A DNA stretch of 64,000 nucleotides from Parapedobacter tibetensis (GTDB taxonomy: Bacteria > Bacteroidota > Bacteroidia > Sphingobacteriales > Sphingobacteriaceae). The notes beneath the pieces are model-generated. The model had not been told where the DNA came from and did no database searches. It worked only from the letters and a program-made list of their open reading frames with translations. Positions 18,481 through 52,651 of the stretch are shown piece by piece. Both the position numbers and the translations under genes were made by a program. Numbering within the stretch: the stretch's first letter is position 1; each line of letters begins with the position of its first letter. The stretch is from assembly GCF_024704835.1 (NCBI RefSeq), contig NZ_JAMXBE010000007.1:1-64000 (forward strand), given 5' to 3'.

Positions 18481-20826
18481 TTATTTAGCGGCGGTGTCAG
18501 TACCAAAAATATTCCTTTCCCTATCTGCAGGGGTAATGCGTTGTTTCTGAATCTTTCCCTTTCTAAAGGAAATTTCCACAGTTGTATGATGAGGGGCATG
18601 CAGCTTGAAGTCTACATCCCAGTCATCCGGCCAGGCAGGTAAAAGAAACAAGTTGACACCATCCGATTGCAGCAGCATTTCCTGTAGCCCAATCATACCT
18701 GAACCTCCCCAATTATGATCGGGAACCCAATCGAAACCTGGTCCCCAGAACGCGGGGAATCTCCGATCAGAATCCTTTAATTTTAAGGTCGTGTATTCAC
18801 GTGCTTCCTCCGTAAGTCCCAGTCGCGCTGCAAAAATATTGTCTTGCTTCCACCCGATATGGCTCCTGAATTTCAACACATCGGGATCATATTTAAAGGT
18901 GTTAATGGCGGTGTCCAACCCCGGCCTACCCAACCCATATATGCCCCAAGGATAAACTGGATACAATTGAGGGGATTCGGTATTGTTTATCCGCTCCCAT
19001 AGTTTAGCCGGGGACAACATCGTACGTCCATCAATGGTACGGAAGCTCAAAGGCGGTATGCGTTTATACAGCTCTTGGAAATAAGCTCGCTTTTCCGGCT
19101 CCAGCAGCTGATCTGGCAATTCCAACAGGCGCTGTACCACCACACGCAATCCAGCAACTGTAGTACTGGCATTGTAGGCCATTTTATAGGTTTCGGCCGA
19201 TGATCCAGGATAGAACACCAAATGCCCATATTCAGCAAAAACCTTAGCTCCCCGTTGCCTGGCACGGTATTGATAATGTTCATCGAAAAACCGAAGGCAA
19301 CTTTCGATGAATGGGATGTATTCACGAATATCCGCATCCACATAGCTGTGGGTTTCCAGCATCATCATGCAAAATTCCAGTACGGTATCCCATTGGTATT
19401 CCAGCCACGCATTGTATTCTACCCCTTTATCAAAATCAGCAGGTCTTTTCCAACTATATTCAGCTGGATTGGGCAGACCGAAATTCTCCAGTTGCTCGGT
19501 AAAACTTGCGCCTTGATGTCCCCAATAGGTTTCAGTTCGCAACTCGGCATTACGTAATAACCGGGTATAAAAATGGAACTGTGATTTAAGCATATCGAAA
19601 TCACCGCTCCTCAACATCGGCCAATAAACCAACCGTTGGTTTTGTGCTGTATGGGTACCTCCTCCCCAATTCCTAAAATCGGGGGTAAAACGGTAGGAAC
19701 TGTCGATACTTAAAGGGTCATAGGTAAATAATCCGCCATTGAATTTCGTAGGGTACTTGCCATAGGCATTGCATCCCAACATATAGCGGAATAATTGATA
19801 ATTGCGGCCGACCTGAAATCCCAAATCATTATCATCGTTTTTATCCGGGTTGATGATGATGTAACTACGTTGCCAGTAGGCATTCCACCAACGCATCGTT
19901 CGTGCCTTGGCTAGACTTCGCGCTGCGCTTGCTTTAGAAACTGAGGTGAGCAGCGCCTCCTTCCAATCGGCAATATGATCATGTTGACCAACATGCAATC
20001 CGACCTGAAGGTGGTGTTTTCTTGCAGGGGCCACGCTTTCCAGTTTCCAACCTTTAAAATCGGTGTCCATATACCGCCCGTAAACTACCCCGGCAGGCCG
20101 CATATTTTTTCCAACCATTGCACCTCCTGAAGTCAATTTCTGAAGAGGATTATAAAGTTGGTTTTTGACCTGATCGAGCCCCTGTTGCCTTACGGCTACA
20201 TCAAATATGGTGCTATCTGCATTTTCATGGTAAAACAGCACGGAATTATTCTCAAAATTAATCGAGTCCTTAGCGGTACGTATGATTCCCTGTGGGGCCC
20301 ATTTCCATGAATTGGCGTTGTTCTCCCGCTTTTCGGGAAACAAGTCCCGAAATCGCCAACTTTCATAGGTCGCTGTCGCTTTTAACGGCCGGTTAGCTGA
20401 AATATCGATATGGATAGTTGGACTGAACACGTCCACCCATAGGTCTAGGTTAACCTTTACCCCCTGACTTTCCGCTTCAATGTTTACATATCCATCCGCT
20501 AGTTTAAGCTCCTGCTTAAAGTTGCCATTGTCAAATGGATTTGGGAATAATTCAACGCGTACTCTTCCTAATTTCAATAAGGTATTATTCTCATCAAATG
20601 CCCCACTCCTACTCATATAAAATAGCAGTGCCCCATCTTCTACCCATACATTGAGGCCTATATCTCCCCCGCCCAGCGGCATGGATTCCCCTGAATGCTT
20701 GCTTGGCGCATCCCAAACCACATTGTAACGATCAAAAATACCCTCCTGAGAATGTGCGTTCCAGCAAATAGCCATCCAAAAAATGGATAAAAATGCTATT
20801 CTTACTACCTGACCACGGGCAACCAT
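18481..20826 (-). CDS. DUF5703-containing (alpha/alpha)6-type putative glycosidase
   Basis: 781 aa with a signal peptide (CWNAHSQ). The N-terminal domain begins VVWDAPSKHSGESMPLGGGDIG, the mark of DUF5703 and similar in layout to the N-domain of GH95 enzymes. Residues about 300-690 are helical with conserved aromatic motifs (NWGGGTHTAQNQRLVYWPML, FYPGSSAETYKMAYNAS) resembling an (alpha/alpha)6 barrel, then a short C-terminal beta region. It overlaps the GH127 gene upstream by 22 bases, so the two are translationally coupled. In B. thetaiotaomicron RG-II breakdown, L-galactose removal is assigned to a GH95 enzyme, so this related fold is a candidate here. That last point is inference. Confidence 0.65.
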   Translation of the reverse strand: MVARGQVVRIAFLSIFWMAICWNAHSQEGIFDRYNVVWDAPSKHSGESMPLGGGDIGLNVWVEDGALLFYMSRSGAFDENNTLLKLGRVRVELFPNPFDNGNFKQELKLADGYVNIEAESQGVKVNLDLWVDVFSPTIHIDISANRPLKATATYESWRFRDLFPEKRENNANSWKWAPQGIIRTAKDSINFENNSVLFYHENADSTIFDVAVRQQGLDQVKNQLYNPLQKLTSGGAMVGKNMRPAGVVYGRYMDTDFKGWKLESVAPARKHHLQVGLHVGQHDHIADWKEALLTSVSKASAARSLAKARTMRWWNAYWQRSYIIINPDKNDDNDLGFQVGRNYQLFRYMLGCNAYGKYPTKFNGGLFTYDPLSIDSSYRFTPDFRNWGGGTHTAQNQRLVYWPMLRSGDFDMLKSQFHFYTRLLRNAELRTETYWGHQGASFTEQLENFGLPNPAEYSWKRPADFDKGVEYNAWLEYQWDTVLEFCMMMLETHSYVDADIREYIPFIESCLRFFDEHYQYRARQRGAKVFAEYGHLVFYPGSSAETYKMAYNASTTVAGLRVVVQRLLELPDQLLEPEKRAYFQELYKRIPPLSFRTIDGRTMLSPAKLWERINNTESPQLYPVYPWGIYGLGRPGLDTAINTFKYDPDVLKFRSHIGWKQDNIFAARLGLTEEAREYTTLKLKDSDRRFPAFWGPGFDWVPDHNWGGSGMIGLQEMLLQSDGVNLFLLPAWPDDWDVDFKLHAPHHTTVEISFRKGKIQKQRITPADRERNIFGTDTAAK

Positions 20827-22838
20827 ACCGACATGTTTCCGAATTCACGATTGCCCCAAGCATAGTAGGGGATTAACTTCACTGGGATTTGCGATTGTGG
20901 GCCAACGCTTACCGGCCGGTATAAGCCATCCCATTTACCTTTACCAATGGAAACCGCATTTCCCGATAATAGCATAACCGTGGACTCGCCGATTTTTGCC
21001 TTCACGGGTCTAAAGTCTGCTGTAACCGAGATAGCCAAATCAAACAGGTCTATAGCTGCCGGAATGTCTGCTGCCTCCAAGCAATAGACCATTGGGCCAC
21101 GTTTCACGGCGATCTGGTTGCGTGTCTCCTCCACCAATGGATTGGATTCCAATAGCGTTACAGGCATATCTAAAATCAACTCCACACGGTCTCCTGCTTT
21201 CCATAACCTGGAAATCTCCATATAGTTTCCGCCATCTGATTTGATGTCTTGTTTCTCGCCATTCACCAATACCATTGATGAGGCACACCATCCCGGAACC
21301 CTAAGGAAAAACGAAAAGGTTTCCGCCGGGGCTTTTTCTACATGGATATTAACTTTACCATCCCATGGATAATCTGTTGTTTGTGTGATTTTGATTTCGC
21401 CTCCTTGAATTTCCGTGTCAAGTGTATTTCCGCCATATAAATTAAACCAAATCCCGCTATCCGAAAAGCTATATAAATAATTGACCACCTCTGCCACCGT
21501 CCGCACGGTATTCGGAGGGCAACAGTTAGATAATGAAATATAGGGGACTCGTTTCTTCGACCAGCGCTGTTGGAAGGGAAGCCGGTCTGAGTAACTCAAC
21601 GGGTTGGTATATAAAAAGCTTCCCCCATCCAGGCTCACACCAGACAACACACTGTTGTACAACGCTAGTTCCATCACGTCGGCATATTTTGCATCCCCTG
21701 TCAGTAGGAGCATCCTCCAGTTCCATAATACATTGCCGATGTTGGCACACGTTTCGTTATGTGCCGTGAAGTTCGGCAACTGGTAATCCCGGCCGAAAGC
21801 CTGGTGGACTTTTTGTACTGTATCTGGGTTGTAGGATGTACCGTCTGGCGAAACGCCATCGTATAATGACCCGCAGCCGCCCGTTACATACATTTTATGG
21901 GAAATCAAATCATGCCAAATGTGTTCCAAACGGTTCATCAGCGTGGTGTCTCCGGTCTCTGCGAACAAATCAGCCACTCCAGCATATAGGTAAGTGGCAC
22001 GGACAGCATGGCCAACGGCTTTGTTTTGTTGACGAAAGGGAACCCGATCCTGGTTGTCGTCCGTACCATCCTCAATTTCTCCCCTGATATCCACCAGGTG
22101 GGTAGCCAATTCCAAGTAACGGGGATTGTTCGTCGTCCTGTACATTTCTACCACACCCATATAATGTGAGGGACAAATGGCATTTCTTGCCAAAGTGGGT
22201 GATGCTTTTTTATAAAATCCGTACAGGTAATCCGCAGCTTTTTTGGCAATATCCAAAAGATTTGTCTGGCTGGTGACCCGATGATGGATGCAGGCTGCCG
22301 TCATCAGATGGCCAATGTTGTAGGCTTCAAAACTCAAACGGTCTTCAAATGCCACCCCTGCTCCGGTATTGCGTTGGTCAATGGTGGCTTTGGTATAGAT
22401 ATAACCGTCTTCACGTTGGGATTGTGCAATGACGGGAATTACCTCTTCCAACCATCGTTCGAGCTTTTTGTCTTGCGTAATTGCATAAACACCACAAACA
22501 GCTTCCATGGTTTTATAAAAGTCTCCATCATGAAAGGACGGTCCACGATGCACCCCTTCGTATAATCCCGCCGCAATTTCAAAATTGCGGAAAGCATGGC
22601 TGATTTCATGATCGGTGTAAATATTCCACAACGTCGGCACCATGTTATGGGTGCAGATGTCAAACCGCTCTGCCCAAAAGCCTTCGGTCCACTTCACTGC
22701 GCCCATATCCGCAGCATGCAGTTTGGCATAAGGACTCCCGCTGGTGTTGACCAATGCTCTTTGTTGGGCAAAGAGCAGATGAGACGCAATAATCAGATAA
22801 ACCACCAATGCTATACGCTTAACATATCTTTCCATCAT
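20805..22838 (-). CDS. GH127 family glycosidase (DUF1680)
   Basis: 677 aa with a signal peptide (HLLFAQ). It is a full DUF1680 barrel: GLYEGVHRGPSFHDGDFYKTMEA, a GGCGSLYDG segment, TAHNETCANIGN (catalytic Glu and a zinc Cys, about 361-363) and SNCCPPNTVRT (Cys pair about 438). These match the Glu/Cys-Zn site known in GH127 beta-L-arabinofuranosidases. A C-terminal beta-sandwich follows. In RG-II breakdown a GH127 enzyme removes aceric acid; other members act on beta-L-arabinofuranose. It shares 4 bases with the GH106 gene before it and 22 with the DUF5703 gene after it. The family is certain; the exact substrate is not. Confidence 0.92.
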   Translation of the reverse strand: MMERYVKRIALVVYLIIASHLLFAQQRALVNTSGSPYAKLHAADMGAVKWTEGFWAERFDICTHNMVPTLWNIYTDHEISHAFRNFEIAAGLYEGVHRGPSFHDGDFYKTMEAVCGVYAITQDKKLERWLEEVIPVIAQSQREDGYIYTKATIDQRNTGAGVAFEDRLSFEAYNIGHLMTAACIHHRVTSQTNLLDIAKKAADYLYGFYKKASPTLARNAICPSHYMGVVEMYRTTNNPRYLELATHLVDIRGEIEDGTDDNQDRVPFRQQNKAVGHAVRATYLYAGVADLFAETGDTTLMNRLEHIWHDLISHKMYVTGGCGSLYDGVSPDGTSYNPDTVQKVHQAFGRDYQLPNFTAHNETCANIGNVLWNWRMLLLTGDAKYADVMELALYNSVLSGVSLDGGSFLYTNPLSYSDRLPFQQRWSKKRVPYISLSNCCPPNTVRTVAEVVNYLYSFSDSGIWFNLYGGNTLDTEIQGGEIKITQTTDYPWDGKVNIHVEKAPAETFSFFLRVPGWCASSMVLVNGEKQDIKSDGGNYMEISRLWKAGDRVELILDMPVTLLESNPLVEETRNQIAVKRGPMVYCLEAADIPAAIDLFDLAISVTADFRPVKAKIGESTVMLLSGNAVSIGKGKWDGLYRPVSVGPQSQIPVKLIPYYAWGNREFGNMSVWLPVVR

Positions 22839-25800
22839 CGTTTATTTTTAGTGGTGTCCATGAATTGTTGTTCGGTGACTATTTCTACCGGTCCAAATAA
22901 TCCAGCTTTATGAAGCTGCCCAGACAATCGATAAGGGGCCGTGGTCTCCGTGATGCGCTTATCCGCAGGGAGTTTTTGATCCCCAATCAGCCTGTTTGCC
23001 CATGTGTTGGTCACCCTTATTTCAATGCTGTTTTTGCCAGATTTCCATGCTTGGGTAATATCAACACGGTTAGGTGCTGTCCAAACAACCCCACAATTGA
23101 CGCCATTTACCATCACTTCTGCTACGTTTGCCACTTCCCCTAATGATAGGTAGACCCGTTCATTTTTCCTTGCTTTTTTACCCTTAATCGCTGCCTGATA
23201 ACATGCTGTTCCAGCGTAATAGGTTATCCTTTCGTCATCATGCGTGCTCCAATCTTGCAAGGTTTCGAAAATCACGGGTTGTGCAGGCCCTCCATACTGT
23301 TCACTAAACAATACCTTCCATGGGGTAAGGATTTCCTTTGTTTCTACCACCCTGCTTTGGGGCAATGAAATTTCCTGCGTAGTGAAGATGACAAAAAGTG
23401 ATTGTGACTCGTGCATCATGCAGTCAAATGACGTTCGGCTTTCTTCGTTCTCCCATCTTACGGGCATCCATGTTTGTCCTGTAACGGCATCATAGATGAT
23501 TGGCACTTTGTCTTTCACCCGAAATGAAAAATGCAATTCCCTTTTTTGGTCTTGTTGATTCGAAATGAAATAGATTTCCTCATCATGATCTATGCGATGG
23601 TTCCAAGCCATATCTTTGGCATATGATCCGCCCTCGGAAACGATAAAATCTCGCTCCAGTCCAATTACATCGAATGTCGACGCTTCATAGGGCCCTTTGA
23701 TTACCTTTCCTTTACCGATTTCCCTCACCCATACTTCCTTCCCGTCCTGAACTTCTTTTGTAAAGTTCCCTTCAAACAATGTGTTGGCCACCTCGCGTAC
23801 CACGGCATCATGCTGTGCGTTATTGGCCAGTCCGGGAACCTTTTCCGGACGCTCCCCTAATACCACGACCGCTCCCTCTTTGATGAGTTGCAATAGTTTA
23901 GTGGCCGTCTCTGCAGTCATCAATTCCGGATGTGGCTGCATCTGGTGTTTACGGGGTAGCACCAATACGGAATATGCCACTCCTCCGGGCAGTACAATCT
24001 TACCTTGCTCCACGCGCGCGCCATTGATCAAGGCGTCTGGATTTACCGAGTCATAAGCATATCCATTCAATGGGTTTATCCACTGTTCGGCTTGAGCCAT
24101 GTTTGCACCCGTAGTTACCCCTGCTATTTTCTGTATAGAATTCCCCTCATTTTTCAGTCGCTGCACCTCCTTTTCCACCCTTTCCGCTCCAAATATTCCC
24201 GGGAGGGTACTGACCAATCTATCGGGTAATACCGCTCTCCGTGGATATTCCTCTCCGATGAATACCGCAATATCCCGAACAGGCTTACCCTTCTGCAATA
24301 AGGTGTGACACCTTTTTGCATAATCTACCCAACTCTTACCCGGTTTCCACCATGTTTGATCGCGCTGGAAATACAATCCCACGCCATCCAACGTCATCCC
24401 AGGTTTCCGGTCCATCCATGGATTGTGCGTATACACGTGGTATACCAAATTGTTGATACCTAACGCATAGTTCCTATCTTGCAAGGTTTTAATATTTCCG
24501 GGGTGTTCATCCCACTCCATCCGGATTTGTGTAAATGCTTCCGCCTGCACCACGGGTTTCCCATAGATATGTGCGCTGGAAATCGCATCCAAGATGTCGT
24601 TTGGTTTGTCGTGCGAGGGACTTCTCAACCAAAATTCCCCCATAGGCACGTCAACTTCCCTAAAATGGATGAGCCCATCGGCGGTCATTACGGGGGCGGT
24701 GGCTTCCGATGTAAAAATGACACTATTGGCATGAGCAAGTTCAGCTAAAACCGTAAAGAAATTATCAGCGATCAATTCGGATATGGTTTGCCTGACATCA
24801 TAAAGGAAACTTTCAGCAACATCCGCACGTTCAACAGGCACACCTGCCATGGCTGGTAGGTATGGCAGGGGATCGTATCCCCTACGCTTGATAAATTCCG
24901 ACCGGAAAACAGGCGACCAATTCTGGCTTCCGCATTCCCATGAATCCACGTGGAAAACGGAAAGCACGTTAGTTGCCAACTCCAGGCCAGCCACTTCCTT
25001 GGCTTTCATGAACCAGCTGTTGAACTGCAATTTCACCGCCTCAGGATTGAATTTATCACATTCCAATCCCTTTCCAGCTCCCGCGGTTTCATTTTTGTGA
25101 CCGGTGGAAGTATGTCCCATACGGATAATCGCCCAATTTCCCGCGGGGACATTCCAATCCAGGGATCCATCGGCATTCAACCTATCGGTAATGTCGATGA
25201 TGCTTTCCAACGGAATTCCAGCTGTGGCTGGTATTTGTGCTTCTGTAGTTCTCGGCCCCACCCGCCATACCATACCCGATTTACCTTCAAACTGGTGGAG
25301 TTTAGGTGTCTCGAACAACGTGATCCCAGTCAATTTCAAGCTCGGTTTCCATTTGGCCGCATCTAAGTCTTCACTGCCGGGCTCCGTGCCTTCGGGATCA
25401 TATACAAACCGAAAATACCTTGCCGTGACTGGCAAGATGGTATGTGTTACCCCCGCATCCCAATCCAACCATCCTGATCGAGGTGGTGTAAGCCGACCTA
25501 TCCGTTCATAATGGATACCATCGTCACTCGTTTCGACTATCAAACGATTGGCTTGGGTATTCGAACTATTCACCTCAATTTTTATACGATTACACGCAAA
25601 GGGCTTATCAAACCGGTATTGTATCCATAGCGGGTCATTGCTACCAAAGGTTTTGGTATTGTTGGGTTCCACCAAATACTGCACATCCTTGCCGGTACTT
25701 GAAGAAACCTGAACAGGGGTATTGAGCGTGCTTTTTGCATAATTGTCGCCTACGGGATAGGCATACACCCGAATATCCTGATAAAAACCTTCATGAGCTT

Positions 25801-26281
25801 CGGGCCTCCGGAGCACCATGTTTTTATGTAACCCTCCCATAACCAGGGTATCCGTCCAAACTACCTTTTGCATGGAAAGTTCTGGTGTGATCCATGGGCC
25901 GCCGGCCGTCGCGAAACCATCATTGGGCAACAAGGCTATTTTAATGCCCAATCGCTCTGCTTCCTCAAAGGTATACTGCATCAATTGCCACCACTCGGGT
26001 GTTAGCGTTTCAATCACGGGCTCAAACAACGGTGGATCTGTTTTTCCTTTGATTGGTGCCAGGTATGCTCCTGCAATTCCGACTTCTTTCATAGCCTCCA
26101 AGTCGGCCGTGATGCCGGCCTTCGAAAAGCTTGCATGCATCAAATACCAAAACACCCAAGGCGAAGCTGAAGTCGGAATATGCTGGTCATCGGGCACAAT
26201 ATGCCCCGGCAATGTTGCATATTGCGCAAGCATTGATGAAGGAATGAAACAAAAAAGGCAAAGCAACAGTTTAAAATTCAT
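22835..26281 (-). CDS. GH106 alpha-L-rhamnosidase
   Basis: 1148 aa, a normal length for GH106. Signal peptide MNFKLLLCLFCFIPSSMLAQ. Family marks include WYLMHASFSKAGITADLEAM, GIKIALLPNDGFATAGGPW and FHVDSWECGSQNWSP (about 445-460), with FIKRRGYDPLPYLP after it. A mid-region galactose-binding-like insert (TSDDGIHYERIGRL) and a C-terminal jelly roll (EVMVNGVNCGVVWTAP) complete it. GH106 enzymes remove alpha-L-rhamnose, and RG-II loci in Bacteroides carry two of them. It lies in a tightly packed run GH78-GH106-GH127-DUF5703. The periplasm or cell surface is the expected site. Confidence 0.92.
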   Translation of the reverse strand: MNFKLLLCLFCFIPSSMLAQYATLPGHIVPDDQHIPTSASPWVFWYLMHASFSKAGITADLEAMKEVGIAGAYLAPIKGKTDPPLFEPVIETLTPEWWQLMQYTFEEAERLGIKIALLPNDGFATAGGPWITPELSMQKVVWTDTLVMGGLHKNMVLRRPEAHEGFYQDIRVYAYPVGDNYAKSTLNTPVQVSSSTGKDVQYLVEPNNTKTFGSNDPLWIQYRFDKPFACNRIKIEVNSSNTQANRLIVETSDDGIHYERIGRLTPPRSGWLDWDAGVTHTILPVTARYFRFVYDPEGTEPGSEDLDAAKWKPSLKLTGITLFETPKLHQFEGKSGMVWRVGPRTTEAQIPATAGIPLESIIDITDRLNADGSLDWNVPAGNWAIIRMGHTSTGHKNETAGAGKGLECDKFNPEAVKLQFNSWFMKAKEVAGLELATNVLSVFHVDSWECGSQNWSPVFRSEFIKRRGYDPLPYLPAMAGVPVERADVAESFLYDVRQTISELIADNFFTVLAELAHANSVIFTSEATAPVMTADGLIHFREVDVPMGEFWLRSPSHDKPNDILDAISSAHIYGKPVVQAEAFTQIRMEWDEHPGNIKTLQDRNYALGINNLVYHVYTHNPWMDRKPGMTLDGVGLYFQRDQTWWKPGKSWVDYAKRCHTLLQKGKPVRDIAVFIGEEYPRRAVLPDRLVSTLPGIFGAERVEKEVQRLKNEGNSIQKIAGVTTGANMAQAEQWINPLNGYAYDSVNPDALINGARVEQGKIVLPGGVAYSVLVLPRKHQMQPHPELMTAETATKLLQLIKEGAVVVLGERPEKVPGLANNAQHDAVVREVANTLFEGNFTKEVQDGKEVWVREIGKGKVIKGPYEASTFDVIGLERDFIVSEGGSYAKDMAWNHRIDHDEEIYFISNQQDQKRELHFSFRVKDKVPIIYDAVTGQTWMPVRWENEESRTSFDCMMHESQSLFVIFTTQEISLPQSRVVETKEILTPWKVLFSEQYGGPAQPVIFETLQDWSTHDDERITYYAGTACYQAAIKGKKARKNERVYLSLGEVANVAEVMVNGVNCGVVWTAPNRVDITQAWKSGKNSIEIRVTNTWANRLIGDQKLPADKRITETTAPYRLSGQLHKAGLFGPVEIVTEQQFMDTTKNKR

Positions 26282-26294
26282 ACCTTGTTATAAC

Positions 26295-28475
26295 TTAATA
26301 GACCACCGTATAGGTACGCGTGCCTTCCAGTACCACCTCGTATTTTCCGGCTCCCAAATCAACCAGATCAGCCTGCTCACATGTTGGCTTGGTTTTGCTT
26401 CGTAACAACAATTTCCCAGTGCCTCCAGCAGTTTTCACTTTGATTTCATTTGTCGTGACGCGAACTTCGATATCGCCGTTTGGTGTAGGAACCGTTCCTT
26501 CCATCCATTCCATATCCCCGAGCTGCGGCTCAATCACGTAAGTCGCATAACCCGCTGACACCGGTTTAACGCCAAGGAAATATTTACCCAGGAGGTAAAT
26601 GGGACTTGCGCCCCATGAATGGCAGAGGCTTTTTCCAAACGGCCTGCCGTACATGGCATAATGTTCTGCCCCTTGCTTGTTCGGATCATATGCTTCCCAG
26701 AATGAAGTGGCCCCAAGCTTGAGCATGCCTCCCCAGTAATCACGGATTTCATCCAATACAACCCCATATTCACCCAAGGTGCATAACGCTTCCAACTCAT
26801 AGAATCGCATATAAGGCGTAGTGATTTGCTGTACCGCATCATTCAGCAGCACGTGTTTTTTTACCCCTTGTTGTTGTGCTTCATTTAGGTAATCGAAGAA
26901 AATGGCGAACATATTGGTATAACGAGTTACTTGGTCTGTCGGTTTGCCATCCACCCGGCTATGGATAAAGGCCTGTTTATCTTCATCCCAATATGAAGCG
27001 AAGATGTTGCGCTTTAACGCTTTGGCCAATTGAGCATATTGCTGTTCGCCTTGCTTGTCGTTGACGATCTCCGCACAAAGTTTCATAGTTTCCAGGCTAC
27101 GGCAGAAAAGAAGTTGTTCAAAGCTGACCTCTCCTTGTTTGCTCAGCCCATCGGCCCAATCGATGAAAATCCAGTCGCCCGGCAAACCTTCCAAAAAGCC
27201 TCGCTCATTTCTCCGCGCTAAGCAAAAATCCATCAGGCTTTGCATACGTGGGTAAAACGTCTCCACAAACGCCCTGTCTCCCGTGTACATGTAATAGTCA
27301 TATATCCCCAAAAACCAATAAAAGGTATAGTCCATGATCGTGTTGATATGGCTGCTTACCGGATCCTTGCCCCTCAAGGCGAGTGTAGTTCGCTTTACGG
27401 AGGGGGAATCAAAAAACAAGTAATAATTCATCAGGTAACTTTGGTAGGCATCACCCGACCATATCCAACGGTCACGTTTGATTCCATCGACGAAAAACTC
27501 CCGCGAGGTCAGGTGCATCGTATATTTGGATACATCCCAAATTTCATTGAGCAGTTCATCCGAACTCCTAAAGTGGCCTCTTTCATCCACGGGCAGGTAC
27601 TCGTACAACATGGATACCGAATCCAATTGCATGCCGTTGTCAACTTCAACATTTACAAAGCGGAAAGCCTTGGATAGCTCCAATACGGTATCACCCTGCG
27701 CCTGACCGGAAATATGCAGCCTATCCAAAGTTTCGCAAGTTTCAGTAGCCAATGCTTCTTCTTTTGACTCACCATAATAGAGCGAAATAAGGCCCTGCCC
27801 TTTCACTCCGTGCAACTTGACAAAACCAAATGTTTCTTTCCCGAAATCAACAAGCCACCGTCCTCCCTGTTGCTCCATCGATACGGCACCATCGGGTTCG
27901 GTAGCAAGCTTGAATGCGGAAGGACGGTTTTCGGGCGAATTAAAATGCCATAATGCTGCCCGCAACCATGCAGTCCCCGATTGGTCGGAGGCCTTGCCTG
28001 TTTCATCAATCCATTCCTTATCTTCGTTCGTGACGAGCCAAGAGCCATCGGACACCACTGTTTTACCCCTTACAAAAATCGCAGGCACATGATCCTGCGC
28101 ACGCACCTTCAGGTTCAACTTATGTGTTCCGGCTGGTATGGTTAGCGTAGTGGGTTCGCCCTCGATGAGTTTCCCATCCAGTTTTACATTGTACTGTCCT
28201 TCAGCATATAACTCCACTTCTTCTGACTCATCAAGTACAAATTCCTTATGGAAATCAATCAACACAAAATGGCTGTCCTGCCGCCAAAATGGAGGAAAAA
28301 AGGCCCCTCTTTCCGTGCGTTTGTTTTGCATTTGGTTGCTCAGCCATATTTCAAAGTCGCCGGGATACCAAATCCATGTTGCCTTGGTTTCCTGTGCCTC
28401 CAGTGACTCGGCAGCAAATACCATCAGCAAAACAATGCTCAACGTCTGTAATAGGTTTGTTCTCTTCATCTCCAC
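26295..28475 (-). CDS. GH78 alpha-L-rhamnosidase (compact type)
   Basis: 726 aa. The start is ATG at 28475 or 28469; the signal peptide ends ESLEAQ. N-terminal beta-sandwich domains are followed by an (alpha/alpha)6 barrel. The catalytic-acid region is FVDGIKRDRWIWSGDAYQS (about 330-348), a variant of the D-x-x-x-R-D-x-x-x-W-x-G-D motif of GH78, and the base is in TSFWEAYDP (about 593). A C-terminal beta domain closes it. It removes terminal alpha-L-rhamnose. It is the smaller of two GH78 genes in the locus and differs in the catalytic motif from the one at 43498, which suggests different linkages. It starts 5 bases after the symporter stop. Confidence 0.9.
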   Translation of the reverse strand: MEMKRTNLLQTLSIVLLMVFAAESLEAQETKATWIWYPGDFEIWLSNQMQNKRTERGAFFPPFWRQDSHFVLIDFHKEFVLDESEEVELYAEGQYNVKLDGKLIEGEPTTLTIPAGTHKLNLKVRAQDHVPAIFVRGKTVVSDGSWLVTNEDKEWIDETGKASDQSGTAWLRAALWHFNSPENRPSAFKLATEPDGAVSMEQQGGRWLVDFGKETFGFVKLHGVKGQGLISLYYGESKEEALATETCETLDRLHISGQAQGDTVLELSKAFRFVNVEVDNGMQLDSVSMLYEYLPVDERGHFRSSDELLNEIWDVSKYTMHLTSREFFVDGIKRDRWIWSGDAYQSYLMNYYLFFDSPSVKRTTLALRGKDPVSSHINTIMDYTFYWFLGIYDYYMYTGDRAFVETFYPRMQSLMDFCLARRNERGFLEGLPGDWIFIDWADGLSKQGEVSFEQLLFCRSLETMKLCAEIVNDKQGEQQYAQLAKALKRNIFASYWDEDKQAFIHSRVDGKPTDQVTRYTNMFAIFFDYLNEAQQQGVKKHVLLNDAVQQITTPYMRFYELEALCTLGEYGVVLDEIRDYWGGMLKLGATSFWEAYDPNKQGAEHYAMYGRPFGKSLCHSWGASPIYLLGKYFLGVKPVSAGYATYVIEPQLGDMEWMEGTVPTPNGDIEVRVTTNEIKVKTAGGTGKLLLRSKTKPTCEQADLVDLGAGKYEVVLEGTRTYTVVY

Positions 28476-28480
28476 AACTT

Positions 28481-30070: not shown

Positions 30071-30087
30071 TCGAAAATAATTATTGA

Positions 30088-30264: not shown

Positions 30265-30268
30265 GCAA

Positions 30269-31375: not shown

Positions 31376-31393
31376 CAGTAAATGACTTTATCT

Positions 31394-33919: not shown

Positions 33920-33930
33920 ATGTTGTTTGC

Positions 33931-36696: not shown

Positions 36697-36744
36697 CGTC
36701 CGAATACCGCCTGAAATGGAAATTTGTGTATTAAACATCATTAA

Positions 36745-38121: not shown

Positions 38122-38150
38122 AACTCTTATTTTAATAACTTGTTCATCGC

Positions 38151-40937
38151 TCAATCGAAAAGCCAGTCAATGTCACGATCTTCATCAGATACACCGATCC
38201 CAGCGTTATATGTGCGAATCAACGCGTCCTCATCGACAAACCCCAGCACCAAGCATAGTCCCTTGGGTAAATTCAGTGTGTGACGACCTGCACCAAACAA
38301 ATAGGTATGAATATTCACCCTTGGCAAGCCCTCCACCGCTATTGCATTGGAAATTTTCACCTCCTCTTGCCCATAATCCCCGGCGCTTGCATCATGTTCA
38401 AGAGTAGGTTTGGGCGCATATAGGGATTGCCTATCGTCACTTGAATAACCGACTTTATCTTCGATGAAGTAACCGACTAACACCTTAACAGGGACGTCCG
38501 ACGTGAAGCTGATGCTCGTGCCTTGATTGATTTGTTTTCCACGGTCAAGCGCTACTCCCTGAAGCCCTTCGATTTCGGGAGCAAGCCCGGCAATCCGGGA
38601 TGAATCGTCCCGGAAAGCCATTTGTCCTTCCGTTATGTGGTAAACCCGATGTCCTCCATGAAGCTTAACAGGTATACTCGCCAATCGGTTTATGGGCTGT
38701 GCATGCCCGCGGTGGTTGGCGGATTTCAGGGAATCGATATTTTTGATGAAATTTTGATATTCTTGCTGATATAGCGGCAATAACTCTTTCCATGTCTTAT
38801 ACTTACCATCCGCCGCACGTATGGGTATCCGCCGTTGCGGTGTCTGCATACTGTTGGCATAATAATACGTGTCTTCTGTTAAATAAACGAGTTTTTCATA
38901 ATGGGAAATACTCGCTGCAAGCAGGGGTGCAGCGGCCTCTAAATCTTGGATATCATGGGAATACTTATACCGCAATACCTTAAGCGCTGCTTTTACTTTT
39001 GCCGCATAACAGTTGGCAAGCGCTTCATAGCTATGTACATCATTCATAAGCCGGTTAAACTCTTCCCTATTTTGGGTTACCATCGGTTCGGCCTGTTCAA
39101 TGACTTGCACGGCCGCCCTGGCATGGGCAACCACTTCAGACGCCACACGGCTTGGTGTTTCTCCAATGTGCGTTTCCTTATGCCATGCCTTCCTCGCTTC
39201 ATCGATAATCATTTCACCTTCGGGAGCCTCCGATTCATACAGCATGGTAAATAGGCTGTATTTGTAGGGATTGATGAATTGTGTCATGAACATTCCCAAT
39301 GTCAAGGTCTGTCTGTTGCCGTCTGTGATTCCGAACCGGCGCAGGAGTTTTGGTGCTATCTCACCCGTTTCTTCATAGGCGCTGAGAATAGACTTGCCCT
39401 GATCTGTCTTTGTCCCATAATAATCAGCCAATACATTGCTCCAGTATACTTCTTCAGCGGCGCGTTCCCGCTTGCTTTTCCAGGCATACCTTGCCCAAGC
39501 CTGATACCACATCCAGTCGCGATCCAGTTGCAGCAAGCGTTTACTCGTGTCCGCTGAAATCCGGTCGGCCGTGTAAGGCCAATCCCAATAGGACGCTTGC
39601 GGATATAGATGCAGTCCATTGGAGCCGTATACCTCATGCATAGCGATGACCGATTTTTGGATAAAATCCGGCGAACTGTAGCGAAAGGGTTCCAGATTGG
39701 CCAATATGTGTACGTTTTGGATGTGCACCGGAGCTACAGCACTTAGCTTACGATGCAGTTCAGCCCATTTACCCCGCGGGGTATAGGTGGTCAGGGCCTC
39801 ACCGTTGTATTTGGCCATCGTGTACAAATTGCCATACAGTGGTTTGGCTGTTTCCATCACCCTTGGTGCATCCGTATCGTGTGCGCGTAGCACGATCGGC
39901 GGCTCATCATCCCGTCCCAACGCTTTCATGCCATCCTGTACCGCTGGGATGATGGTCTTGGTAAACCAATCCACATCGTCTTGCCCTACCCCTTCCATCG
40001 CTTCGCCCAAGGTGACCAGCAATCCGACATTGGGGTATTTCTCGACGAATGCCGCGATGGACTTGCGTGTGTAGTCAGCAATCAATGGCATAATGGGGCG
40101 GTTACGATCTTGCGTCTTTATCCCATGATGTTCGGCGAAGGGTTTGGATACGATAATGTTATAGAACATTTGGATAATCCATATTCCACGTTTGTCTGCC
40201 TCTGCGGTCAGGAAGGTAAAGAGTTCCTCATTTCGTTTAAACGTCTCCTCATCAACTTCCACAGCATACGGATAATCATCCAGTTTGACTAGCGAAGCAA
40301 ATGGATGGCCGTTCCACAGGTATAATGAATTATAACGGTTTTCCACCATCATGTCGAGATACCGTATCCATTGCTCCTTGTCATATAACCACGGGAAGAC
40401 TTCTGGCGTATACGGATATTCATAGACTGTACGCCCTGGTAAATAATAGGGCTTTTGTACACCGATGGCCGTGCCACGCAGCACCATTTCTGGCTGGTCT
40501 GAAAAATCAAGGTTGACAGGAAATTCGCCGATGTGCTTGATACGCTCAACCAGTTCCATGCAACCATACAACGTGCCTGTAGCGTCCGCGCCGGCGATTA
40601 TACCGCTACCTGCCTTTGCTTCGGTCAACAAGCGAAACCCTTCTTTTGCAACCGGGAGCACGCCGTTGAGATGTTCACGAATAAAAGTGTCCGTATGCTC
40701 CCCCACAATGATCCGGTTTCCATGGACACTTCTGTCGCCATCGGTTTGCACGGTCACATCATATCCGATGGTCACCAGCGCTTGCCTTAATTTCTCTACA
40801 CCGAATGCAATACGGGGGTTTCCCTCCTCAGCCATAACAATAGTCGTCTTCGACGACTCGACTGTGGGTTCAGAAGTCTGGGGGAAACCATATAGACATA
40901 TTGAAAGAAAACAGCAAATAAAACTTCCTTTGATCAT
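38151..40937 (-). CDS. GH138-like alpha-galacturonidase candidate
   Basis: About 928 aa from ATG at 40937 (MIKGSFICC), preferred over ATG 40958 because AAAAGG lies nine bases upstream and it starts the signal peptide (GFPQT). An N-terminal GH20-zincin-like alpha/beta domain (IAFGVEKLRQALVTIGYD, GADATGTLYGCMELVERI) is followed by a barrel (MMVENRYNSLYLWNGHPFAS, LLVTLGEAMEGVGQDDVDWF) and a long helical region with a C-terminal beta domain. The layout and length fit GH138, the family that removes alpha-galacturonic acid from RG-II chain A. GH67 and GH115 glucuronidases were considered but their motifs are not seen. I call it GH138-like with moderate confidence. Confidence 0.6.
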   Translation of the reverse strand: MIKGSFICCFLSICLYGFPQTSEPTVESSKTTIVMAEEGNPRIAFGVEKLRQALVTIGYDVTVQTDGDRSVHGNRIIVGEHTDTFIREHLNGVLPVAKEGFRLLTEAKAGSGIIAGADATGTLYGCMELVERIKHIGEFPVNLDFSDQPEMVLRGTAIGVQKPYYLPGRTVYEYPYTPEVFPWLYDKEQWIRYLDMMVENRYNSLYLWNGHPFASLVKLDDYPYAVEVDEETFKRNEELFTFLTAEADKRGIWIIQMFYNIIVSKPFAEHHGIKTQDRNRPIMPLIADYTRKSIAAFVEKYPNVGLLVTLGEAMEGVGQDDVDWFTKTIIPAVQDGMKALGRDDEPPIVLRAHDTDAPRVMETAKPLYGNLYTMAKYNGEALTTYTPRGKWAELHRKLSAVAPVHIQNVHILANLEPFRYSSPDFIQKSVIAMHEVYGSNGLHLYPQASYWDWPYTADRISADTSKRLLQLDRDWMWYQAWARYAWKSKRERAAEEVYWSNVLADYYGTKTDQGKSILSAYEETGEIAPKLLRRFGITDGNRQTLTLGMFMTQFINPYKYSLFTMLYESEAPEGEMIIDEARKAWHKETHIGETPSRVASEVVAHARAAVQVIEQAEPMVTQNREEFNRLMNDVHSYEALANCYAAKVKAALKVLRYKYSHDIQDLEAAAPLLAASISHYEKLVYLTEDTYYYANSMQTPQRRIPIRAADGKYKTWKELLPLYQQEYQNFIKNIDSLKSANHRGHAQPINRLASIPVKLHGGHRVYHITEGQMAFRDDSSRIAGLAPEIEGLQGVALDRGKQINQGTSISFTSDVPVKVLVGYFIEDKVGYSSDDRQSLYAPKPTLEHDASAGDYGQEEVKISNAIAVEGLPRVNIHTYLFGAGRHTLNLPKGLCLVLGFVDEDALIRTYNAGIGVSDEDRDIDWLFD

Positions 40938-40964
40938 ATAACAACCTTTTATATTCATATCCTT

Positions 40965-43412: not shown

Positions 43413-43416
43413 AAAT

Positions 43417-43424
43417 CAAACCTA
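43417..43424 (-). promoter_or_regulatory. Candidate internal PUL promoter box (TAGGTTTG)
   Basis: Minus-strand TAGGTTTG fits TAnnTTTG and lies 4 bases before the GH2 start at 43412, in one of the larger gaps of the PUL (85 bases). A TTG is found only 15 bases upstream, shorter than usual. Use of the box would give a leaderless or nearly leaderless transcript. Confidence 0.22.
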
Positions 43425-43497
43425 ATCATTCACAAAATTCAATGAGCTCCGTCCAATATCCTTTGAAGTGGCCACCGCGATTCTCCGTTGGTCCTTG

Positions 43498-46278: not shown

Positions 46279-46306
46279 GCTTGATTTATATGCTAACCCA
46301 ATCTTC

Positions 46307-47206: not shown

Positions 47207-47217
47207 TTCCGTGGATT

Positions 47218-48636
47218 TTATGGGTTGATGTTCTTCCTGAGTTCAGTAAATAGGTTTTCCAACTGTTCAAATCCCATGATGGCATTCGATGGAAGTTGCG
47301 CTCCTTCGTCTCCAAACACCCGTAATGCTTCCTCGGGCTCAATCGTTATTTCGGCCTCATCCGGCCAGCCATCGCGAAACCCAATACCATCGGTATCCAA
47401 TTGGAAATGCTTGACTAAAAAAGCATACAGCGCCCTTCGTTTGGAAATTCCAAAATCATGGCCTTCATCGGGAAGGTGAACGTGTTCCACAAGTAGTGGC
47501 AATTGATAGTATCCATATATCTTTTGGAGATAAGGATAATCATGCATGCCCATTTGGGCAGTCCAGTCCGCGCCATCAGACACCAACAATTGCGGTCGAG
47601 GGGCAGCCATTGCCGCAAGTTCCACATTATTGGTTCCTCCTGCCACAAAATGTATAGGCATGCCGCTTTCACAAGGACAACCTCCGAAATGGTATGAAGA
47701 CAAAGATACCACGGGCGCGCATAGCGTGATGCGGTCATCAAGGGCGGTCATGAGTGTGGTGTGGCTACCTCCTCCTGAGCCTCCGCTTATCCCAATGCGC
47801 GAAGTGTCAACTTCCGGCAAATTATTGAATACATAGTCCAGCATACGGATTCCGGCCAGTGTCTGCAAGGTATGGGCCAGGCTACGCCGATGGTCCTCCG
47901 GTTTGAATTGCAATAAGGATTCCCCCCAAGCAAATAAATCATAACTGATGGCTATTGCCCCCATGCGTGCGATGGAACCACATCGTAGCTGGGCATCCTC
48001 TCGATAGCGATGCCCGGCCCAATGCCCATCAGGGCTCAGCACGAGCGGTATTTTTCCAACGCTTTCCGAAGGTCTATAGATGGACCCATTGACATACAAT
48101 CCTGGGAGTATTTCAATCGCGATGTTTTCTACCGTATATCCCTTCATATAACGCCTCGGTGTGGTTATCGGGGATGTACCGGGGCTCAGTGGAAGTGGAT
48201 GAAGCTGTAAGGCTTCCCATAGTGCTTTACGAAGTGTATCCTTCCTGTGTTCCCAAGAGGAACGGTCATCATATTGAGAAGCAATGCGGTGCAGCCGTTT
48301 CCATGCTTCTGCCATGGGCCACCGATGGTATTCGAAATCCTTGAGCTTATAGGTGCTTTCCCTTTCCTTCACGGCCACCATGTCAAAAGGAGCCAGCACA
48401 TTATCCAAGCTGCTTTCGACATCCTCCCGCAAGCGCCAATAGCCATAAGTCAGCATTTTTCCCGCCACCTGCTTTTCGTTGTGTCTGATCTCGATGCCAA
48501 ATTTGTCTTCGATGCGCTTAAGTATTTCTTCTAATGGTACGCGATACAGATCATCTGAATTTTGCGCTGATGTGCCTATCGATAAACAAGCACCTAGCAC
48601 AATTAAGCACCATCTTTTCGTCCATGTCGGTTTCAT
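47218..48636 (-). CDS. Secreted alpha/beta-hydrolase esterase with N-terminal STN-like domain
   Basis: 472 aa with a signal peptide (SIGTSAQ). Residues about 30-98 look like an STN (secretin/TonB N-terminal) domain: VPLEEILKRIEDKFGIEIRH, KMLTYGYWRLREDVESSLDN, FDMVAVKERESTYKLKDF. The rest is an alpha/beta hydrolase: LVLSPDGHWAGHRYRED, nucleophile Ser in RIGISGGSGGGSHTT (about 285), a possible acid in LVSDGADWT, and His in PDEGHDFGIS (about 393). Carbohydrate esterases of this fold remove methyl or acetyl groups from pectin; the serine-type pectin methylesterase of B. thetaiotaomicron RG-II breakdown (CE19) is one precedent. An STN domain on an esterase is unusual. The esterase fold is sure; the substrate is inferred. 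Confidence 0.75.
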   Translation of the reverse strand: MKPTWTKRWCLIVLGACLSIGTSAQNSDDLYRVPLEEILKRIEDKFGIEIRHNEKQVAGKMLTYGYWRLREDVESSLDNVLAPFDMVAVKERESTYKLKDFEYHRWPMAEAWKRLHRIASQYDDRSSWEHRKDTLRKALWEALQLHPLPLSPGTSPITTPRRYMKGYTVENIAIEILPGLYVNGSIYRPSESVGKIPLVLSPDGHWAGHRYREDAQLRCGSIARMGAIAISYDLFAWGESLLQFKPEDHRRSLAHTLQTLAGIRMLDYVFNNLPEVDTSRIGISGGSGGGSHTTLMTALDDRITLCAPVVSLSSYHFGGCPCESGMPIHFVAGGTNNVELAAMAAPRPQLLVSDGADWTAQMGMHDYPYLQKIYGYYQLPLLVEHVHLPDEGHDFGISKRRALYAFLVKHFQLDTDGIGFRDGWPDEAEITIEPEEALRVFGDEGAQLPSNAIMGFEQLENLFTELRKNINP

Positions 48637-48647
48637 CCGTTTATCGT

Positions 48648-49811
48648 TTACACCTCTTCAGGTTCTCCGACAGTAACCGTCGGAGGGGTATAATTTTTTA
48701 ATTTTGGCCATACGCCTTTCTTGATTTTCTTGAGCTTTAATTCAGCGGGATCCACTACCACATGCTTGATGCGTTCCCGCCGCCATGTATAGACCACATG
48801 CAGCAATCCGTCACTGGTTTGGATAATGGATGGATAAGAATATTGGCTTATCGGCGAATCTTCTAAAATCAGTGCTGCATGCCAATTTTTGCCATCTTTG
48901 GAGATTGAAAGGTTCAGTGGCGTGCGGGGACCTTTGGCCAAATCACCGGGGGGCAATACATGGTTGTAAACCAGCGCATGCCTACCATCGCGCATCGTCA
49001 CCGCATCGGTACCCGAATTATTGTTTGGCAAATCAGATTTTTCGAGCGACGTCCAAGTTTCGCCATCGTCGTCCGACCATGCTTGCACCAATGCTCGGTT
49101 TCGACTTCTCGCCAGGAGTTGTAATTTGCCTTTGCCATGATTCAAGATACTCGGCTGGATGGCATCCAAGTTGTCATCCCCTTTTTCCAAAGGCCCTATT
49201 TTGCGCCAGGTTACGCCGAAATCAGATGTCACTTCATGGTGTATCCGCCATCCGTTGCCTTCGGTACTACTGGGTGCGATGAGATTCTCGTTGTCTAGTA
49301 ATACCGGTTTATTTTTTACTGGGCCAATGTAACCGTTGGGCAGTTTTATTGCTGCCGACCAGGTCTTCCCTCCATCATCGGAAGTTTTGAGCATGCCCCA
49401 CCATTCCGAGGGCTTCGGTCCCACTTTATAATACAGTTGCAATGCTCCTCCCGGTATTTGATACAGCACAGGGTTCCAAGTTGGTAACCTGAGTGTGTCG
49501 TTCACTATGCCGTTTGCGGCGGAAACAGGAGGCAGCCAATCACCATCTACATGGCGGCTCACATAAATCTCTACATCTGGGTTGCGCTCTCGAGTACCGC
49601 CAAAAAAAGCAGCAACCAAGCCCGTTGGGGTCTCTGTAATCGTTGCGGAATGGCACGATGGAAATGGAGCGGTATCAAACAGAAATTCATCGACCACAAT
49701 ACCCTTCCGCCATGGCTCGACTTCTTGGGCAGCGATTTGGAAGCTTAAATAGCCGTTCATTAAAACAATCAAGAACAGCACTTTACGAAGTATATAGACG
49801 GTATGATACAT
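48648..49811 (-). CDS. Secreted BNR/sialidase-fold beta-propeller protein (copy 2)
   Basis: About 387 aa from ATG at 49811 (MYHTVYILRKVLFLIV), chosen over 49847 because it starts a good signal peptide (QIAAQ) and does not overlap the gene before. It is a paralogue of the protein at 17252: AFFGGTRERNPDVEIYVSR, LPTWNPVLYQ, YYKVGPKPSEWWGMLKTSDD, IGPVKNKPVLLD, LDAIQPSIL, NNNSGTDAVTMRDGRHALVY and YPSIIQTSDGLLHVVYTWR. The Asp boxes are clear. The two copies share the same core but differ in several loops, so they may act on related sugars in different linkages. Its function is not known. It is placed between a larger propeller protein and the esterase. Confidence 0.72.
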   Translation of the reverse strand: MYHTVYILRKVLFLIVLMNGYLSFQIAAQEVEPWRKGIVVDEFLFDTAPFPSCHSATITETPTGLVAAFFGGTRERNPDVEIYVSRHVDGDWLPPVSAANGIVNDTLRLPTWNPVLYQIPGGALQLYYKVGPKPSEWWGMLKTSDDGGKTWSAAIKLPNGYIGPVKNKPVLLDNENLIAPSSTEGNGWRIHHEVTSDFGVTWRKIGPLEKGDDNLDAIQPSILNHGKGKLQLLARSRNRALVQAWSDDDGETWTSLEKSDLPNNNSGTDAVTMRDGRHALVYNHVLPPGDLAKGPRTPLNLSISKDGKNWHAALILEDSPISQYSYPSIIQTSDGLLHVVYTWRRERIKHVVVDPAELKLKKIKKGVWPKLKNYTPPTVTVGEPEEV

Positions 49812-49815
49812 AGCT

Positions 49816-51681
49816 TTATTGTCCGTTAGTATTGAGGCGAATCGCATTAAAATATCCTATTTGATAAACCGCTTCATCTACCGGTTCATCTGCTAAGGGC
49901 AAGTCAACCGTCTGGTCAGCCGGCGTATCCGCATGTGGAAATCTCCTTATCTCCCCTGTCCTGAATTTTACCCTAGCTATTACATCCACAGGTGAAAATG
50001 CTATTCCATGAAGTGCGTCCTTTCCATTGACATGTACTCGGTAAGACCGGGCAGCAACATCAAGAGTCACTTTTATATCATAGGTGGTGTTGGCTTCATA
50101 TTGTGCTACCTGCTTATAACGGGAGCCTGCCTTGGAGGTGAATTGACCTGCCGAGTCCAACGACAGCCGAACAAACGGCGTTCCCTTATCATTGGTAAAC
50201 TCAATATCCAAGTGTCCATGATCATTTTGTCCCGGCGTAATGGAAAATGAAACTTCCATATGCTTAGCATGGGGAACGACCCGCTCGGCAACAGCGTAAT
50301 CATATCGATCGCGATCCTTCAATACCAGTGCCGCTTCACCGGCAGGATACTGTTCAACCGTAACGGGAGCCCATAATGGGCTATAAATATTCCATAAAGC
50401 CAAATCGCGTATATCGGTTGCACCCTGTATTTCATCGCGCACATTTTCCGTGACGCGATCGACAATGGGTATTGGGATTTTTGCTACCCAGATATCTTCC
50501 TTGTTCATGCTATAGGTTATCCATACATGCCCATTACTGGGGAGTCCATTGCCTTCCTGAATACCCCGCACATATTGTGGCCCATAAGACTTGTAGTTGC
50601 CTCCAAACCGCATGGGCGGAATCTCTCCATTGACCAGCAATAGGTTGTCATAAACCAATCCATCATCACTAACCGATAAAGCTAAGGGCCAGCGGTATTC
50701 CGAAGGGTTATAAACCGTTACATATTTGCCATCCGTGGTTCGTTGTCCCCATATTTTCGCATTGCTATTCACAAAACCGGGGGCGCGTACTGCATTTTCG
50801 GGCCACGTACGTCCTCCATCCTCACTGATTGCAGTAAGCGCATGCTTCCATAATCCGACTACCCTGCCATCGTTCAAGTGATAGTAACTAAACGCCTTGT
50901 ATTGTTTTTTTAATGGAATCAGCGGGTCATCACGGTCAGCTTCTTCCACCCACTGCATCATCATCAATGGATTTGCCAGCAATTCCTCGCATGCCGCTAC
51001 AAAACCTTTGTCCCTGCTATCTTTATAAAATGGATATTCCGAATCTTTAGGATTCCATGAAGCATTGTAACGGATAAAATAGATCGGACCATAGGTACCA
51101 TCGGCATGGATTTCCCGTATTACCCGTCCTATCCCTTTCCCATCGTTGGGGTCATCCTTCGCGTCCATGGCTATGCCGTAATAACCTAATGTCAGCAACC
51201 TTCCATTTTTGGCCGTATAAAATCCCATCCGTTGGTGCATAATGGCATACAAATCCTTGGCCACCCCGTCGCTACCTTCCTTCTTGTACCCATCCGGAAT
51301 CCGATAGGGCGGAAAAACAACTTCGGGTATAGACCAGCTATACCCATCTGCAGATTTCGAAATATAGGTTTGACTCGGAGGGATGTGTTCCCCCACAGGG
51401 CCAGCTAGAAATTGCAAATAGAATTGCTTATCGCGATAAGCCAACATGGGTGCGTGGTTGTATGTCCAGCCATATCCCTCCGCAAGCGCTGGTTTGGTAC
51501 GGTTTGCTCTCAGCACCTGGATATTGTGCACCCCCACTGCTGGAGCCAATTGCCCATGGTGGTAGTCTACATTGGATAAGGTCTCTCCCGTATAATGTAC
51601 CGTATCTTGGGCATGCACGATACCACAATTTATCACGACCAATGCGGCTACCAAGCCTTTCACTTTACTCAATTCCACCAT
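49816..51681 (-). CDS. Secreted six- or seven-bladed propeller protein with C-terminal lectin-like domain
   Basis: 621 aa with a signal peptide (INCGIVHAQ). The N-terminal part (to about 400) is a BNR-type propeller: YGWTYNHAPMLAYRDKQFYL, YISKSADGYSWSIPEVVFP, MHQRMGFYTAKNGRLLTLGY, TAISEDGGRTWPENAVRAPG, WGQRTTDGKYVTVYNPSEY. After about 430 comes a beta-sandwich like LamG/concanavalin domains (AERVVPHAKHMEVSFSITPG, TTYDIKVTLDVAARSY). Propeller lyases and hydrolases that remove rhamnose caps from glucuronate (for example families GH145, PL27 and PL42) are possible relatives. I cannot assign it to one. It overlaps the GH43 gene by 17 bases. Confidence 0.62.
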   Translation of the reverse strand: MVELSKVKGLVAALVVINCGIVHAQDTVHYTGETLSNVDYHHGQLAPAVGVHNIQVLRANRTKPALAEGYGWTYNHAPMLAYRDKQFYLQFLAGPVGEHIPPSQTYISKSADGYSWSIPEVVFPPYRIPDGYKKEGSDGVAKDLYAIMHQRMGFYTAKNGRLLTLGYYGIAMDAKDDPNDGKGIGRVIREIHADGTYGPIYFIRYNASWNPKDSEYPFYKDSRDKGFVAACEELLANPLMMMQWVEEADRDDPLIPLKKQYKAFSYYHLNDGRVVGLWKHALTAISEDGGRTWPENAVRAPGFVNSNAKIWGQRTTDGKYVTVYNPSEYRWPLALSVSDDGLVYDNLLLVNGEIPPMRFGGNYKSYGPQYVRGIQEGNGLPSNGHVWITYSMNKEDIWVAKIPIPIVDRVTENVRDEIQGATDIRDLALWNIYSPLWAPVTVEQYPAGEAALVLKDRDRYDYAVAERVVPHAKHMEVSFSITPGQNDHGHLDIEFTNDKGTPFVRLSLDSAGQFTSKAGSRYKQVAQYEANTTYDIKVTLDVAARSYRVHVNGKDALHGIAFSPVDVIARVKFRTGEIRRFPHADTPADQTVDLPLADEPVDEAVYQIGYFNAIRLNTNGQ

Positions 51682-52612: not shown

Positions 52613-52651
52613 ACGTAAATGCAAGTAATAGTTCATCGATTACAACACTCC

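Follow-up and report, generated by a model that had tools for sequence, protein, structure and literature searches.

Which enzymes of a soil bacterium release the individual sugars of rhamnogalacturonan II (RG-II), and which act on its 2-keto acids, is the question raised by the first 64,000 nucleotides of contig NZ_JAMXBE010000007.1 of Parapedobacter tibetensis. This stretch (hereafter referred to as the window) contains most of an RG-II utilization locus of a Parapedobacter-type bacterium. An earlier reading made from the letters alone (the sequence-only reading) had recognized an RG-II polysaccharide utilization locus (PUL), and the gene families agree: the neighbourhood holds GH127, GH106, GH78-like, GH141, GH2, GH140, GH138, GH78, methylesterase, GH43, DUF6298, two PL1 and SusCD genes, and most PUL genes match RG-II genes of one Bacteroides genome. 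That reading left four proteins with no sure substrate, namely a DUF5703 protein, a 621-residue propeller and two sialidase-fold paralogues with BNR_2 domains (hereafter BNRA and BNRB), whose open reading frames we confirmed, all on the minus strand (Table 1). Their substrates are largely assignable, and mostly to known biology. In the joint explanation that we consider best, with a probability of roughly three in four, the DUF5703 protein is assigned to GH139 and the propeller to GH143, BNRB is the hydrolase of 3-deoxy-D-manno-octulosonic acid (Kdo), and BNRA belongs to a separate cassette with a sodium/solute symporter (SSF) and an aldolase.

In the reference Bacteroides genome, BT1020 is identical to the crystallised protein across the 385 residues searched, and the BT numbers used below follow gene order and published functions (PMC7939467) rather than annotation. 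The window's own contig is designated C67 and belongs to an assembly of 85 contigs.

Assignment of the DUF5703 protein and the propeller

By sequence, the DUF5703 protein is a GH139 enzyme. It shares 56.7% identity with BT0984 (PDB 9hyq) over 744 aligned residues, and 11 of the 11 published functional residues of BT0984 are retained. These include N396, E545, D699, N705, Q395, W659, N615 and E617 (BT0984 N412, E561, D723, N729, Q411, W683, N639 and E641), together with W176, W387 and W474 (BT0984 W162/W403/W490), which make up the complete Trp triad that slightly more than 40% of GH139 members have (PMC12282258). BT0984 is reported to be a 2-O-methyl-alpha-L-fucosidase that works by inversion, in which N412 serves as base, E561 as acid and D723/N729 as activating residues (PMC12282258), and the window enzyme would likewise take alpha-1,2-linked 2-O-methyl-L-fucose off chain B by inversion, using an Asn base and a Glu acid.

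The label of propeller given to the second protein is borne out by its domains, with PF24067 (Beta-prop_BT_1020) at residues 26-261 and PF22585 (a sialidase-like carbohydrate-binding module) at residues 430-590. The protein aligned to BT1020 (5mqr) across residues 24-608 with 792 bits, and 5mqr was its sole match among solved chains at E <= 0.001. We identify it from these matches as the GH143 half of BT1020. GH143 hydrolyses the linkage of 3-deoxy-D-lyxo-heptulosaric acid (Dha), and BT1020 fuses GH143 and GH142 activities in one protein. The window enzyme would cut Dha from the backbone, probably once a separately encoded GH142 has taken the capping beta-L-arabinofuranose (chain D).

The sequence-only reading had proposed a GH95-like barrel acting on L-galactose, with the propeller left as a candidate for Kdo or another linkage. 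The fold part of this stands, as GH139 resembles GH95 in fold and in features of the -1 subsite (PMC12282258). The L-galactosidase part does not, since all BT0984 residues are kept and the locus contains a genuine GH95 gene, to which L-galactose is better assigned; a Kdo-acting propeller is likewise discarded, given the match to the GH143 half of BT1020. We therefore give this combination very little chance of being right. Two of the sugars that the sequence-only reading sought enzymes for, methylated fucose and Dha, are now assigned, and the label "no sure substrate" no longer holds for these two proteins. GH139 and GH143 are already known families rather than new candidates, and the orthology found is to families whose demonstrated substrates are RG-II ones rather than unrelated ones. 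GH95 and GH142, which had been counted as missing, lie just past the window end.

BNRB and its probable role in removing Kdo from chain C

We further focused on BNRB, for which the ATG chosen by the sequence-only reading (position 49811) was also the best start. BNRB lies near GH143 in 67 of the 80 GH143 loci, which come from related Bacteroidota and are hence not independent, and the usual order is GH143-GH2-GH78-BNRB-methylesterase. Of the 13 loci without BNRB, seven are incomplete, and each of the six with full flanks encodes BNRB at another place in its genome, at 59-68% identity. Among 396 genomes, BNRB matches were detected in 14 of the 17 genomes with GH143 and in 6 of the 379 others (Fisher p = 1.2e-18, uncorrected for kinship), and each of the 14 strongest matches fell in a GH143 genome. 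In several Chitinophagaceae and other Bacteroidota (L042, L053, L066, L070, L075), and in Bacteroides, BNRB is fused to GH78 and forms the C-terminal part (~380 residues) of a protein of about 1255-1300 aa. The Bacteroides fusion (1299 aa; L152:13163-17059) adjoins GH140 in the genome with the identical BT1020, and its C-terminal domain is 48% identical to BNRB. Among the Bacteroides RG-II stretches read, this was the only BNR-clade domain that tblastn with BNRA and BNRB detected. The GH78s fused to BNRB or located near it belong to a single clade (100/100), which does not include the BT1019-type GH78.

RG-II requires a "Kdo hydrolase (GH33)" (PMC11214529), and in plants Kdo and Dha occur in RG-II only (PMC12168206). 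Chain C is Rha-alpha1,5-Kdo (PMC12282258, together with established RG-II knowledge), and therefore a fusion of a rhamnosidase (Rha, rhamnose) with a sialidase fold fits the expected chain-C enzyme. From synteny, fusion and co-occurrence, each established directly, we infer that BNRB is probably the RG-II Kdo hydrolase of BT1013 type, encoded as a separate gene. It would be an exo-acting alpha-Kdo hydrolase on chain C, which elsewhere is fused or adjacent to a rhamnosidase predicted to take the Rha cap first. The earlier suggestion that a sialidase fold suits Kdo is thus very probably right.

The two paralogues are 48% identical to each other, and their sialidase folds, anticipated by the sequence-only reading, are supported by BNR_2 matches and by AlphaFold2 models (predicted local distance difference test scores of 85-88) showing a six-bladed sialidase propeller. 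The structure comparison that had been proposed, made here with these predicted models, returned GH33 sialidases (Foldseek E 1e-14 to 3e-16, template modelling score about 0.6-0.7, identity 12-19%); the 50 best matches listed were nearly all sialidases. The active site was compared through an alignment to NanB on 4xma, with a numbering offset of +38 derived from the printed coordinates. In BNRA numbering, NanB Tyr653 aligns with the second Tyr of a Y-x-Y-P motif (Y346) and Glu541 with Q239, and RIP-motif proteins of the same genome (e.g., L089) align ungapped with a C-H-x-x-T motif that places His64 at Arg1. The acid/base Asp is D89 in 107 of 107 sequences, at a spacing of 25 from the Arg1 position, as in the RIP proteins. 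H64, D89, Q239 and R255 do not vary across the 107 sequences; for R315, Y344 and Y346 the same is true of 106, the remaining one having a gap. The GH33 arginine triad is consequently incomplete in both paralogues, with R2 and R3 kept (R255 and R315) and Arg1 replaced by His64, and the Tyr nucleophile is retained while its Glu partner is Gln (107/107). To judge from the sequences, Arg1 is replaced by His and the sialidase Glu by Gln throughout the BNR clade, the Bacteroides RG-II fusion included, a finding that is new here. These conserved replacements turn the mechanism of RG-II Kdo removal into a concrete, testable question.

Loss of two GH33 catalytic residues might instead mean that BNRB does not hydrolyse Kdo linkages and acts as a lyase or partners GH78 in a lectin-like role; lyases (PL27, PL42) are established among propeller folds. 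We consider this quite improbable, because the Asp, the Tyr and two Arg residues are retained wherever aligned, unlike in a degenerate lectin, the co-occurrence with GH143 is strong, and neither PL27 nor PL42 was named among the 50 best structural matches listed. A PL27/PL42-type assignment is not favoured for BNRA on the same structural grounds.

As a separate observation, another contig of the same genome (C2; L084-L091) encodes eight BNR_2 proteins in a stretch of about 107 kb, and an RIP motif as in classical sialidases occurs in at least three of them.

BNRA and a proposed aldolase-symporter cassette

BNRA falls in its own 12-row clade rather than the RG-II-linked one, the two groups lying on opposite sides of one branch (100/98). 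Eleven orthologous copies (67-78% identity) from ten related genomes had no RG-II genes in the flanks read, and for 7 of these 11 the flanks read contained a DHDPS-family gene. Genes for AraC, SSF, DHDPS and BNRA are contiguous in two genomes (G028 and G019). At the same chromosomal site in a further genome (G087), gyrB/AraC/aldolase/symporter genes lie on one side of BNRA and an M28 peptidase gene on the other, with no RG-II genes in the stretch read. In the window genome (G000), the RG-II PUL lies between BNRA (17252, beside the peptidase) and the aldolase/symporter arm (C67:83-90 kb). Insertion of the PUL beside a resident cassette explains this layout, the alternative being PUL loss in the other genomes; under both scenarios BNRA is independent of RG-II. 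These results suggest that, by descent, BNRA probably does not belong to the RG-II PUL, contrary to its placement in the sequence-only reading. The statement that no sialic-acid catabolic genes are present holds only inside the window; the same contig encodes a DHDPS-family aldolase and an SSF symporter, whose genes accompany BNRA orthologues in relatives.

No NCBIfam equivalog cut-off was reached by the DHDPS protein; its closest relative with a solved structure is YagE, a probable 2-keto-3-deoxygalactonate aldolase. The entire BNRA pathway we infer as the simplest reading of this gene set, in the order of hydrolysis, import and aldol cleavage: BNRA would be a sister exo-ulosonidase, resident in the genus at this chromosomal site, that frees a 2-keto-3-deoxy acid, which the sodium/solute symporter may import and the pyruvate-dependent aldolase may split. 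More broadly, we tentatively propose, as a possible though doubtful extension, that the clade to which BNRA and BNRB belong constitutes a distinct family of ulosonic-acid hydrolases with a catalytic machinery of its own (His at the Arg1 position and Gln at that of the Tyr-activating Glu) and that BNRA, AraC, SSF and the DHDPS aldolase form an undescribed stand-alone cassette releasing, importing and cleaving a 2-keto-3-deoxy acid such as Kdo. If so, the DHDPS-family gene would encode Kdo-type aldolase activity, and the cassette would be a lead on bacterial breakdown of Kdo-like acids outside RG-II. A PVC-type heme-binding/HEAT-repeat protein of 1155 aa (C67:84883-88347; L172:6883-10347) was also observed, in the aldolase arm here and beside GH139 in the sister species Parapedobacter composti.

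Several points weigh against the joint explanation. The window genome has no obvious chain-C rhamnosidase: in P. composti this GH78 lies between GH143 and BNRB, which abut here, and it was not found in the rest of the genome, where the other GH78s fall outside the clade on long branches and a gap among the 85 contigs is possible. The His and Gln replacements mean that catalysis by BNRB and BNRA is no simple copy of the sialidase one. BT1013 is presumed to be the Kdo hydrolase from its CAZy annotation, together with gene order and exclusion. As for BNRA, the RG-II PUL of P. composti occupies the same site and is accompanied by the aldolase and symporter, with no BNRA-clade protein present, so that this arm may also serve RG-II. 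Moreover, GH139 and BNRA share a strand and are separated by 92 bp, BNRA being the downstream gene, and no terminator was detected in this interval; BNRA may therefore be co-expressed with the PUL.

This last arrangement would suit a reading in which both BNR_2 proteins serve RG-II, BNRB acting on Kdo and BNRA on another 2-keto acid or on a variant of Kdo (Dha elsewhere, or Kdo after incomplete trimming). BNRA indeed carries the clade-specific active-site signature of BNRB, and in the two Parapedobacter genomes with an RG-II locus, the opposite PUL end is flanked by an aldolase/symporter arm. We nevertheless regard this reading as somewhat unlikely, because BNRA orthologues occur in relatives without RG-II neighbours, P. 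composti manages a full RG-II PUL without BNRA, and Dha is already covered by GH143.

Gene content, gaps and comparison with known systems

The remaining PUL genes are listed in Table 1. GH127 is the aceric acid hydrolase in RG-II (PMC11214529); a role as stand-in chain-D beta-L-arabinofuranosidase was rejected, since GH142 is present and the window protein matches the aceric-acid type of Bacteroides RG-II loci. The methylesterase and GH43 types follow PMC7939467. In the GH141 protein, an L-rhamnose-mutarotase-like domain occupies residues 747-834 and is absent from the Bacteroides homologue (622 aa). A xylose-isomerase-like TIM-barrel protein (46307-47206) is a conserved member of RG-II loci, encoded next to BNRB and the methylesterase. 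The DUF6298 protein (52652-55810, 1052 aa) is a conserved neighbour of PL1, GH43 and GH140 in almost every GH143 locus and is a candidate for a new RG-II or pectin enzyme.

Table 1 Features of the window and of the adjoining part of its contig (positions without prefix refer to the window)
Feature	Position	Strand	Evidence or remark
BNRA, BNR_2 sialidase fold, predicted exo-ulosonidase of SSF-aldolase cassette	17252..18388	-	BNR_2 296 bits
GH139, predicted 2-O-methyl-alpha-L-fucosidase, BT0984 orthologue	18481..20826	-	PF18961 (DUF5703_N) 394 bits; 9hyq 942 bits
GH127, BT1003-type orthologue (aceric-acid hydrolase)	20805..22838	-	PF07944 363 bits; 52% to Bacteroides RG-II GH127
GH106 alpha-L-rhamnosidase	22835..26281	-	PF17132 561 bits
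GH78-like rhamnosidase, BT1001-like	26295..28475	-	57% to L154:7189-9411; PF21209
GH141 fucosidase with C-terminal rhaM-like domain	31394..33919	-	PF21231 231 bits; PF05336 33 bits; 48% to Bacteroides RG-II GH141
GH140 apiosidase	36745..38154	-	PF13204 391 bits; 47% to Bacteroides RG-II GH140
GH138 alpha-galacturonidase	38151..40958	-	6hzf (BPa0997) 1028 bits; 53% to Bacteroides RG-II homologue
Gap at GH137 site of P. composti	43413..43497	.	85 bp here
BT1017-type pectin methylesterase	47218..48636	-	49% to Bacteroides BT1017-type protein
BNRB, BNR_2 sialidase fold, predicted to hydrolyse alpha-Kdo in RG-II chain C	48648..49811	-	BNR_2 288 bits
GH143, BT1020-like propeller, 621 aa	49816..51681	-	PF24067 408 bits; PF22585 206 bits; 5mqr 792 bits
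GH43, BT1021-type alpha-L-arabinofuranosidase	51665..52636	-	58% identity
GH95	C67:72897-75725		~9 kb past window end
GH142, 525 aa	C67:77520-79094		~13.5 kb past window end; 50% identity
Divergent GH106-like gene, 1080 aa	C67:80190-83429 (L172:2190-5429)		Between aldolase and GH142
DHDPS-family (pyruvate-aldolase family) aldolase	C67:83472-84476
SSF symporter	C67:88486-90057

GH137, the chain-B beta-L-arabinofuranosidase, is the N-terminal part of a BT0996-type protein and was found in 7 of 7 RG-II comparators, including P. composti (C39:114655-115680, between the GH2 and GH78 homologues). No match was detected in the window genome, where an assembly gap may hide it. For the chain-C rhamnosidase, the GH78 gene at 43498-46278 was excluded as it groups with the BT1019 type; as a speculation, the divergent GH106-like gene could be its replacement. 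Overall, these assignments match most RG-II linkages to genes in a soil bacterium and expose the gaps at GH137 and the chain-C GH78.

Compared with known systems, the window GH139 belongs to another genus than BT0984. BT1020 is a fused GH143/GH142 protein, whereas both enzymes are encoded separately here, and most of the environmental Bacteroidota loci examined likewise have GH143 as a separate protein of ~620 aa. The BT1013-type GH78-BNR_2 protein shares its active-site signature and RG-II setting with BNRB but is fused to GH78, while BNRB is free-standing in a genome seemingly without that GH78. GH33 sialidases (NanB, Neu2 and the P. gingivalis sialidase) share the propeller fold and the Asp, Tyr, Arg2 and Arg3 positions with the BNR pair, and differ at Arg1 and the Glu partner of Tyr, here His and Gln. 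Similarly, YagE and NanA belong to the same DHDPS superfamily as the cassette aldolase, in which a Lys-Asp-Thr motif and a Tyr are plausibly placed, as judged by eye, but the cassette aldolase fits no named subfamily.

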